Below the pieces are notes generated by a model that saw only the letters and a program-made list of their open reading frames with translations, did not search any database and was not told the DNA's origin. This document shows, piece after piece, positions 51,473-53,920 of a stretch of 64,000 bases of DNA (its first letter is position 1; each line of letters begins with the position of its first letter). Made by a program: the position numbers and the translations under genes. Location of the stretch: the NCBI GenBank assembly GCA_032433595.1, contig JASWJB010000015.1, forward strand, positions 1 to 64,000, written 5' to 3'. The stretch is from Conoideocrella luteorostrata. Its lineage: Eukaryota; Ascomycota; Sordariomycetes; Hypocreales; Clavicipitaceae.

Positions 51473-51849
51473 GCACAAACAATATGAACTATCACAAGAC
51501 TCTGCTGTTGTGCGTCATGTTCCTGTTCACGACCTTTTGTACTTGCGACGTTTCTTCTTCATTCGCAGAGGTTGTGCGCACAGACTTCACTGGCCCAAAT
51601 CAGCACGGGTCAAGAGTTAATTATAACAAATGAAGATGGCTATGGGTTCACGTATCGGTAGGAGTGTGATTCATGTATCTACAAACTACCAGTATCCCGC
51701 CAACGGCCGGCCGAGCTTAAACTCCAGGGGAGAACTCCATACAACGACCGAAGGCTTTTGATATGGCGACTCTGCGTAATGAAGGCCGGGGCCAGTTACT
51801 TTCAGCCATATCAAGTTCCTCCAAGCTGGGTCGACTCGACTCGACTGGT
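51473..51849. other. Convergent 3' spacer
   Basis: 3' flanks of the Zn2Cys6 factor and of the microexon peptide gene. A short GACTC repeat (TCGACTCGACTCGACTGG, about 51831-51848) lies directly after the peptide gene's stop codon. Confidence 0.5.
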
Positions 51850-53920
51850 TTATGCCTGCACAGAATTAGACGCGTAGCTATAAGTGTCACGTTTGACTGC
51901 ACGGTAACTCACGCACTAAAACCCGCCAGAACATTAGCACAGCACGGAATCAATCATTGACGAGAAACTTACGGCCTGTGGGGTGAAGCTAGCTCAGTCT
52001 GAACGTCGCAGCAAAGAGTGTTCTGGAATTAGTTACAGGCAGCAAAACTTACGCACTACCACGTATATTATTAGTTCCGGCCAGATCGAAAATCAGGTCC
52101 ATACGTAATGTAATGAAACACTTACAAGCTAAGTTATTAGTAGTTAGTGGCATTCCCGCATATTTTGAACAGTGAATACTTACACCCTACGAAATGAAAT
52201 TAGCGGGATGTGGATATTAGTAGTGTTTTCAGGCTAGGAGAACATACACCCTGCGAACTTAATTAGCTACTTTGAGTAACAGCATCGCAAGACTCAGTTG
52301 ACTTACTCTCTTCTGTGATTAAAGTGTAAGCATTAAAACGTAAGCATTTGCGCAGGTACTGAGTAAACTTACGGGCTGAAGCGTTGGAACTGTGTCAGCT
52401 TGTACAAATATAAATTGACTTTTTTGTTTTAGAACACTTACACGCTGTATTGTAGCATAAGCATAAGCTGATGGCACAAGAACGAGAGCCGAGACTTACG
52501 CACTACAAACATTATTAGTAGTATGCCAAATAATATTATGTGAGCACGTTGAAGCAGTTACTTACACCCTATTTGGTATTAGAGCCGGGCGAAGAGCGTG
52601 TAAAACTATTAGTTGTGTAATAACGCACCCACTGCAAACTACTTAGTAAAGCGGAGGAGTAAGTAAAGATATGAGCAACATACGCCCTGGATATAGTTAG
52701 TCTTGTCCTACTTTAGAGCTACAAGTTAAGCAACCTACGCTCTATTATGTGGCATTATATCAGTAAAGTTCCCGCTATAGACTTATGCTTAAGTGATACA
52801 TACTCCCTATCATAACTTTTATTAGTATATATTCATAAAGCTAACAAACTGAAGCAAGACTTACACAAGACTGCCATACTTATTAGCGGTGTAACCAGTA
52901 AGAAGCTTTTTCATGAAGTAGACATACACACTATAAACAGGGCATTAATATCGTACACAGTCATGGTGCATATATGTAAAGTTTTAAGACTTACACACTA
53001 GCAGGATTGTTAGGTCGGGGGCTGCAGTAGAATAAACATATTGGATGCAGCTCACGTTCTTGTTTGTATTAGTATACCCGCGTCTTTATTCTGCAAGAGA
53101 TAAAAGAAGAATAACCTACATACTACTACTTGTTAGTACTCTAAACACAAGGCTCAACAGGGTAATACTTACATTCTAGATTTCGTGGTAATCAGATATG
53201 ACGCTGCTTCTACGGGTCCAGCGGAGTAATCATACATCCTAAGATTTTCTCAGCTGTTAGGACACGAGTGCAGTGGCCTTCGAGGATGGAGACAGATCTC
53301 ACAGGCTATATATAGATTAGTAAATTAGTCCGCAAATAAGCATGATATCGGACTTGAAATAACTTACACACTTAGTGTAGTCATAAAAGTGTTAGTATAG
53401 CGCTTGAACTATAGCTTTGCATGCCATAAACTCACGTACTATAAGAACATTAGGATTTCACAGAAATGAGCATCTTGGCTAGTATACTTACACCACCCTA
53501 CATTAAATATAGTGTATTAGTGTATGTTATGCACAAGTTGCAAGTTATACACATACCCCGTTCGATCCCTATTGCAGAATCTAAGAATTCAGTCACTCTT
53601 AGTGTTAGGTCAAGCTGCATACTTTCTGTAGTGGGTATATCGATTAGTAACGTCTTTACGTATCCCCCTTACTTCGTTTAGTAAATACGTACACACTAGG
53701 ATGAGGAGTACAAGTTGTTGTTAGTTGTCACCGCGCGTTACTCAACCGTCCTTTGGCAATTTGTTACTAACGTACTGCGACGTAATCAGAATCATGGTAG
53801 TGACGCATCTTGATTTTGATTACTCACAGGGCCTCGCTTCTCGAGCTGCTCTTCCATGGCAACGGGGTTGGCAAATGCAAAGCCAGCAAAGGCCACGATC
53901 AATACGGAGACGACTTTCAT
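51850..53920 (-). CDS. Ultra-microexon gene for a secreted Cys-rich peptide
   Basis: Predicted 32-exon gene, 207 coding nt, 68 aa. Exon 1 (53828-53920) encodes a signal peptide (MKVVSVLIVAFAGFAFA) and a propeptide ending EQLEKR, a Kex2-type site. The remaining exons, 5' to 3', begin at minus-strand position: 53774, 53695, 53625, 53568 (12 nt), 53497 (6 nt), 53438, 53370, 53305, 53238, 53175, 53122, 53058, 52997, 52930, 52870 (6 nt), 52806, 52741, 52686, 52631, 52568, 52502, 52444, 52375, 52312 (6 nt), 52250, 52186, 52128, 52055, 51975, 51915 (all unmarked: 3 nt) and 51855-51850 (one codon plus TAA). Every intron is phase 0. The processed part (39 aa) has eight cysteines spaced C-x8-C-x5-CC-x-C-x5-C-x7-C-x-C, a disulphide-rich, knottin-like layout. 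I know no named family; the function is unknown. The sequence shows the splice signals, frame and cysteines; splicing itself is inferred. Confidence 0.85.
51856..53827 (-). other. Array of 31 phase-0 mini-introns
   Basis: Thirty-one predicted introns of 50-77 nt alternate with exons of 3-12 nt. Donors: GTAAGT 14, GTATGT 5, GTGAGT 3, GTAGGT 2, and one each of GTTAGT, GTACGT, GTATGC, GTGAGA, GTATGA, GTGAGC and GTGCGT. Acceptors: TAG 18, CAG 11, AAG 2. Most have a CTAAT, CTAAC, CTGAT or CTGAC branch-like site 6-35 nt before the acceptor. Apart from these signals the introns share no obvious sequence, so they are not recent copies of one another. Between acceptor and next donor there are exactly three bases in 26 of 30 cases. 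The longest introns (76 and 77 nt) are the second and the 29th. Confidence 0.85.

Follow-up and report, generated by a model that had tools for sequence, protein, structure and literature searches.

Exons no longer than a codon are already known in fungi, in intracellular receptors. In the NACHT-ANK genes of truffle, alternative splicing of codon-sized (3-bp) microexons has been reported, with variable exon skipping reported for the sensor region (PMC3689799, PMC4986451, PMC10197012). A 2024 paper on Trichoderma states that functional microexons had not been described earlier in filamentous fungi, and reports one of 20 nt (PMC11121469). Outside the fungi, schistosome micro-exon genes (MEGs) are described as having a long 5′ signal-peptide exon, short central exons (<36 bp) that are mostly divisible by three, and a secreted product (PMC4671649), and the bicycle genes of aphids as encoding secreted putative effectors in many very small internal exons, almost all of which are in phase 2 (PMC9168663). 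Recursive splice sites and fungal stwintrons are described as being spliced consecutively, the next donor being created or exposed by the reaction before it (PMC6224609, PMC9024468). A literature search (titles and abstract openings, mostly of open-access papers) found no fungal secreted-peptide gene with codon-sized exons; as far as that search went, the gene described here, a putative secreted-peptide gene of this plan, appears to be new.

The gene comes from Conoideocrella luteorostrata ARSEF 14590, a pathogen of scale insects whose assembly, according to the genome paper, was made from Illumina reads. The window is the whole stretch of DNA that was analyzed, 64,000 nucleotides of one contig (C15). 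The chain of exons runs on its minus strand from 53920 to 51850 and comprises a 93-nt exon, 31 introns, 30 internal exons, and a last exon. All of the introns are GT-AG, 50–77 nt long, and in phase 0, and the internal exons measure 3 nt (26 cases), 6 nt (three), or 12 nt (one). Joined, the exons form a coding sequence of 207 nt (68 codons plus a stop), the product of which reads MKVVSVLIVAFAGFAFANPVAMEEQLEKR GPYCKGSNGGGYCPDNYNCCSCGSGWGCRPKRGGLCACA*. The original prediction had given these exon and intron counts and sizes, which are exact base for base, and a 68-residue product spread over about 2.07 kb, for which the in-frame join and the stop codon are confirmed. The parts of the gene are as follows.

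53828 to 53920, minus strand: exon 1 (93 nt), MKVVSVLIVAFAGFAFANPVAMEEQLEKR-GP, with a signal-peptide-like region, a short pro-region, and a Lys-Arg site, by eye
51913 to 53774, minus strand: the array of 30 internal exons, split by introns 2–30 (coordinates derived from the intron table)
53774-53772 (Y), 53695-53693 (C), 53625-53623 (K), 53438-53436 (Y), and 53370-53368 (C), minus strand: 3-nt exons
53305-53303 (P), 53238-53236 (D), 53175-53173 (N), 53122-53120 (Y), and 53058-53056 (N), minus strand: 3-nt exons
52997-52995 (C), 52930-52928 (C), 52806-52804 (G), 52741-52739 (S), and 52686-52684 (G), minus strand: 3-nt exons
52631-52629 (W), 52568-52566 (G), 52502-52500 (C), 52444-52442 (R), and 52375-52373 (P), minus strand: 3-nt exons
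52250-52248 (G), 52186-52184 (G), 52128-52126 (L), 52055-52053 (C), 51975-51973 (A), and 51915-51913 (C), minus strand: 3-nt exons
53557 to 53568, minus strand: 12-nt internal exon, GSNG (P0001, the deposited protein, has these residues after exon 1)
53492 to 53497, minus strand: 6-nt internal exon, GG (present in P0001 too)
52865 to 52870, minus strand: 6-nt internal exon, SC
52307 to 52312, minus strand: 6-nt internal exon, KR, a possible second dibasic site
51850 to 51855, minus strand: coding part of the last exon, GCA TAA (Ala and stop)

The splice signals are strong at the donors, where +5 is G in 31 of 31 introns and +6 is T in 27, and the acceptors are TAG (18), CAG (11), or AAG (2). 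The introns had been said to carry standard donors, branch-like sites, and acceptors; a branch-like YTRAY motif is present in 29 of 31 introns (it is absent from introns 19 and 22), and in introns 4 and 29 it lies at least 36 nt away from the acceptor. A branch site was scored in 30 introns, and in five of these (introns 4, 11, 23, 29, and 31) an earlier YAG lies between the branch site and the chosen acceptor, so some variation in the product is likely even if no exon is skipped. As read from the sequence, use of the earlier YAG would lead to an in-frame stop at intron 4 or 11.

With the truffle receptors the window gene shares the presence of many 3-bp exons in a filamentous fungus (here 26 of 30 internal exons, set between canonical introns), but it is no NLR, looks secreted, has no Pfam domain, and would derive its mature product almost entirely from tiny exons. 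Its layout falls within the definition of a MEG (the signal peptide being assigned by eye, and no sequence relative being returned by a general protein search), although the exons are smaller, 26 of 30 being 3 nt long, and a long 3′ coding exon is missing. By analogy, and with no kinship claimed, it would work like a micro-exon gene. The likeness to bicycle genes lies in the many very small internal exons of nearly one phase and in a putatively secreted product, but here the phase is 0 (31 of 31 introns) and the exons are smaller still. In comparison with recursive splice sites and stwintrons, each step in the window array would add a codon, and every splice signal is left whole by the other introns. 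Kex2-processed precursors of the KEP or dikaritin type carry tandemly repeated core peptides between dibasic sites, whereas the window product has two KR sites and no repeated core.

We put at about 80% the probability that the locus is a genuine gene for a small secreted peptide, spliced in codon-sized steps, any one exon of which could be skipped in frame. Against this reading weigh the two introns with no branch-like motif, the five with an earlier YAG, the protein searches that returned no homologue of simpler structure, and the irregular exons that frame-free decoding gives in one further gene (contig C5, below). Part of the reason in its favor is that the plan recurs. A scan of the genome (46.4 Mb) with an acceptor-Cys codon-donor pattern gave 90 matches (94 for the reversed control), with clusters of five matches in the window gene and seven in contig C307. 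Four further codon-exon patterns gave 52, 75, 49, and 30 matches (57, 89, 42, and 46 for the reversed controls), distributed, in the same order of patterns, as 11, 2, 4, and 1 in contig C5; 0, 6, 1, and 0 in C307; 2, 0, 1, and 1 in the window contig; and 1, 4, 0, and 0 in contig C282. The number of arrays found is a lower bound, because the patterns miss arrays made of other codons. Two contigs with two pattern matches each are not among them: C117 decodes to four introns (score 19) and was not counted as an array, and C390 decodes to one intron. The three further arrays are as follows.

Contig C307 (locus L033), 5441 to 3876, minus strand: codon-exon gene, exon 1 MKFTMVLLVAAAGLGLANPVLVAESDAGVFKR
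Contig C5 (locus L049), minus strand: codon-exon gene that starts MKVSVIISITFGGFLLASPVPTSAAEKR and goes on QFGPFKDILVPAGASHFGSPLVPVGGLLGLDKPKPLPKVKLDKDGNPFGPSPGKKAADVFLNGFKDAPGAFKNIF
Contig C282 (locus L051), about 3165-2195, minus strand: array of 13 introns and 12 single-codon exons, between ankyrin segments

The C307 gene has 21 introns of 53–73 nt and 20 single-codon exons, and a TAA opens its last exon. Its predicted mature peptide, DCPPPCCGPCEGPGGCCCYC, contains eight cysteines, and each residue after Lys-Arg is an exon of its own. The C5 gene is more extreme than the window gene: decoded in frame, it comes to 72 introns separated by 70 exons of 3 nt plus a single 15-nt exon, and on that basis its intron count is at least 72 (vs. 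31). Frame-free decoding of C5 gives 77 introns; one exon close to the start then measures 17 nt, and two close to the end measure 1 and 4 nt. The last two belong to a tail of the array (about 2030-1640, minus strand) that lacks a clean frame in this decoding. The decoded part of the C5 gene contains no cysteine, and thus the plan is not tied to one type of peptide. The claim that no fungal gene was known at this extreme needs correcting on two counts: the window gene has company in its own genome, where the C5 gene is longer, and the codon-sized microexons of truffle NACHT-ANK genes were reported earlier.

The window, C307, and C5 genes follow a common plan, in which one ordinary exon encodes a signal-peptide-like region and has Lys-Arg at or near its end; the codon exons start immediately behind Lys-Arg in C307 and C5, whereas in the window gene two codons intervene. 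When the three sequences from the start of exon 1 to Lys-Arg were aligned pairwise, each alignment beat all 2000 residue shuffles, although these scores are inflated by the common layout of signal peptides. The DNA upstream of the three genes showed no convincing shared sequence (best blastn E 0.076, over 12 bases). On the minus strand of C307, from about 6729 downwards and some 1.3 kb upstream of the codon-exon gene, there is by eye the start of another secreted-looking ORF (MVRVISFLAFAAGALASC...). The original reading of the window locus as a gene for a secreted, Kex2-processed peptide survives the sequence tests, and it is made much stronger by the two further genes of the same plan and by a 3′ element common to all three (described below). 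A broader proposal, which we put forward tentatively, is that these genes are a fungal prepro-peptide family written one codon per exon, whose mature peptides are put together by the spliceosome one residue after another, with single-residue changes, the capacity for a large in-frame variant library, and a structured 3′ element as the family's mark. If this is true, exon skipping, or the gain or loss of an intron plus a codon, could alter the peptide by single residues while leaving the frame unbroken.

An origin of the window array by chance is ruled out by the decoder controls. The chain decoder combines splice-site matrices, first trained on the introns of the window and C307 genes, with a branch term and an intron-length term, both of which were set by hand and never retrained. 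In its frame-free, stop-free form it returned 31 introns for the window, with identical exon lengths, no in-frame stop, and a score of 242.7, whereas 100 dinucleotide shuffles reached at most 20.6 and five introns. The frame-constrained decoder reached at most 16.8 and four introns in 200 shuffles, and at most 15.1 in 76 background readings (3-kb tiles of the window, on two strands). When the donor and acceptor matrices came solely from the other three arrays, 30 of 31 window introns were recovered (score 198.2), one intron being shifted so as to leave a 16-nt exon, and leave-out decoding likewise recovered 21 of 21 introns in C307 and 71 of 72 in C5; it should be noted that the C5 and C282 introns in these leave-out matrices were originally found with the window and C307 matrices. 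Over 134 strand readings of 67 loci (several of them overlapping), array readings scored at least 89 and all others at most 20.9.

The frame is maintained even where the decoder is blind to it. In frame-free decoding, the internal exons are multiples of three without stops in 30 of 30 cases in the window, 20 of 20 in C307, and 12 of 12 in C282. Across the three secreted-peptide arrays, the stop-free run amounts to 133 codons (36 + 20 + 77, a count of the 3n exons of frame-free decoding that was entered by hand), for which the chance is 1.7e-4 at intron base composition. These figures also weigh on the view that the array does not code, or barely does so, in which one or a few large introns take it out or few of its exons are used, and the tiny exons are a by-product of intron duplication. 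The deposited protein of the locus, P0001, could be taken in that way, given that by eye it uses only exon 1, GSNG, GG, and then the CCT exon read through into intron 8, so that it shares exon 1 and three internal exons with the array but none of the other tiny exons. The C282 array, which plainly consists of near-identical tandem intron copies, could be cited in the same sense. However, the deposited annotation, as the genome paper describes it, was built from protein alignments and BUSCO training, and the consulted part of that paper names no RNA. Moreover, the 133 codons contain no stop, the frame is held across 31 + 21 introns, eight cysteines fall within 36 internal-exon codons in the window and another eight within 20 in C307, the donors are strong throughout, and the window introns are not recognizable as recent duplicates. 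We consider a non-coding or decoy array to be very improbable. Because the deposited model conflicts with the array, codon-exon genes seem to escape ordinary annotation, and similar secreted peptides may thus be widely missed.

As to the origin of the arrays, tandem duplication is plain in C282. The gene in which this array lies matches the Pfam families NPHP3_N, PNP_UDP_1, and Ank_2 above cut-off and NACHT below cut-off, so that it resembles the truffle genes in having an array inside a NACHT-ankyrin gene. The introns of this array are tandem copies that are all but identical (mean pair score 25.8, vs. −2.4 when shuffled), which indicates that intron duplication occurs in this genome, and its intron units have no match elsewhere in this genome. 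In the other arrays the introns are more diverged, with mean pair scores of −1.25 in the window, −1.45 in C307, and 1.35 in C5 (vs. −2.74, −3.50, and −1.90 for mononucleotide shuffles), all of which are several standard deviations above the shuffles.

Introner elements are similar intron copies dispersed in a genome, and an invasion of an existing coding exon by such mobile introns would leave copies at almost every codon boundary. The introns are all in phase 0 and of similar length, which is compatible with this, and those of C5 have an extended branch-site context in common: RGCAGYRTRCTAAT occurs within three mismatches in 34 of 72 C5 introns (1.6 expected from shuffles), and in three of 31 window and three of 21 C307 introns (0.7 expected for each). 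Its core, GCAGYRTRCTAAT, has 17 exact matches in the genome against three for a reversed control, and the intron cores of the window and C307 average about six standard deviations over mononucleotide shuffles. Yet only three of the 17 matches are in C5, the other 14 being single scattered places, and by eye the TGCTAAT part is also found in an ordinary intron of the C282 gene, so the motif may be the usual branch site. Similarly, positions shared through the branch site and base composition could account for the mean similarity of the introns, the best window pair (10.5) being within the shuffle range (maximum 13.5) and the best C307 pair (11.5) only slightly above it (10.0). The window array matches nothing else in the genome, and hence the dispersed copies that define introners are missing for it; the 14 scattered matches to the C5 motif, against three for the control, may amount to a faint shared context. 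We tentatively read the apparent dispersed family as branch-site context. Tandem duplication of a unit made of an intron plus a codon, which is plain in C282, fits at least equally well, and we regard invasion by mobile introns as unlikely. Rather, the four arrays may represent one process seen at different ages, namely the tandem duplication of an intron-plus-codon unit, and for the window gene the insertion of introns into an existing exon is possible. With near-identical tandem copies in C282 and diverged ones in C15, C307, and C5, the four arrays offer testable loci for the origin of intron arrays.

Short fungal introns are usually recognized across the intron, and if so, a length of 3 nt does not by itself exclude an exon. 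In the mechanism that we propose for the window gene, exon 1 would provide the signal and the pro-region, ending two codons past Lys-Arg, and the mature peptide GPYCKGSNGGGYCPDNYNCCSCGSGWGCRPKRGGLCACA, with its eight cysteines, would receive all but its first two residues from the 30 tiny exons and one codon of the last exon. Each 50–77-nt intron would be recognized across itself. Given that an acceptor and the next donor are just 3 nt apart, neighboring introns are probably not bound simultaneously, and splicing would most likely be stepwise, with each step adding a codon to the growing message and bringing a fresh donor to the junction. Inclusion of all exons would give the eight-cysteine peptide. 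As exon skipping keeps the frame, the locus could also yield shortened in-frame variants. Secretion is predicted from exon 1 by eye, and any role on the insect host is guessed at from how the fungus lives. If the gene is spliced as read, a fungal spliceosome handles dozens of consecutive 3-nt exons, which is a hard case for exon- and intron-definition models, and codon-exon genes would offer a concrete route to altering a peptide by one residue at a time.

It is possible, though we would not bet on it, that the point of the array is a different one, namely that it serves variable exon skipping, so that one gene secretes a population of in-frame variants. This would be compatible with a real gene. 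Internal exons that are all 3n and introns that are all in phase 0, so that skipping never shifts the frame, are what such a device needs, and the same plan recurs across the three secreted-peptide genes and within the ankyrin part of an NLR-type gene. The reported alternative splicing of codon-sized microexons in truffle NACHT-ANK genes (PMC3689799, PMC4986451, PMC10197012), and the suggestion by schistosome authors that MEG splicing makes a heterogeneous protein mixture (PMC4671649), point in the same direction. On the other side, if a single exon is skipped, the two introns that flank it merge, the shortest such merged intron being 107 nt (introns 18 and 19), which is above any single intron of the array. 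With every exon included, moreover, both of the Cys-rich products carry eight cysteines, as would befit a single defined product with disulfide bonds. Because the cysteine number is even in both, we rank the full eight-cysteine product of the window gene ahead of a mixture.

The identity of the peptide was sought through homologue searches. The window protein had no Pfam match up to E 1 and no paralogue in its own genome besides its own locus up to E 10; a general protein search with it returned its own deposited model, P0001, and nothing else, and hence no simpler-structured homologue was among the results. Searches with the C5 and C307 peptides also found no homologues. In a phmmer search of the PDB, CPDNYNCCSCGSGWGCRP resembles granulin A, CPDGYTCCRLPSGAWGCCP, over 19 residues at a non-significant E of 0.055 (0.25 when the whole 68-residue protein was used), whereas three shuffles with the cysteines fixed returned no granulin (best E 0.23, 1.3, and none). 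The likeness to granulins (PDB 1g26, 6nug, 2jye) covers these roughly 19 residues only, and the granulin profile in Pfam was unmatched. We treat the resemblance as a lead only.

Beyond the coding region, a stretch downstream of the window gene recurs at five other places in the genome, with matches of 42–63 bases at 86–90% identity.

51695 to 51752, minus strand: 3′ element with a core of about 48 nt, a potential stem, and an inner hairpin, found at six loci of the genome

The six copies are in the window, L033 (C307), L047 (C224), L048, L049 (C5), and L050, and each of the three codon-exon genes is upstream of one of them. Looser searching (two mismatches) gave 15 places, and a covariance model run on 14 of these confirms the five known copies; the window copy is also scored by the model. 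Rfam contains no family for the element up to E 1. The six sequences fit a 15-pair structure, drawn after viewing these same sequences, in which 95.6% of 90 cells are paired (a percentage reached by two of 500 shuffles), and pairing drops to 22–52% when the partner is slid by 1–3 columns. Three pairs have a change on both sides, a number reached in 18 of 500 shuffles, and the covariation score was reached by one of 500. Single-sequence folds are not clearly stabler than shuffles (z −0.05 to −1.04). Because the structure is post hoc, only six sequences are available, and the folds are not clearly stabler than shuffles, we regard this as a candidate structured element, for whose structure the covariation count alone speaks.

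The element is not confined to codon-exon genes, with no array near the C178 copy. By eye, the upstream neighbors of other copies include a secreted-looking gene with ordinary introns (C23) and an intronless Cys-rich, secreted-looking ORF (C224), so that at least five of the six copies are downstream of secreted-looking genes. Neither the C224 ORF nor the first C23 exon has a Pfam match. The C224 ORF (L047, 1985-1722, minus strand) is directly upstream of its element and shows, by eye, a knottin-like CC spacing.
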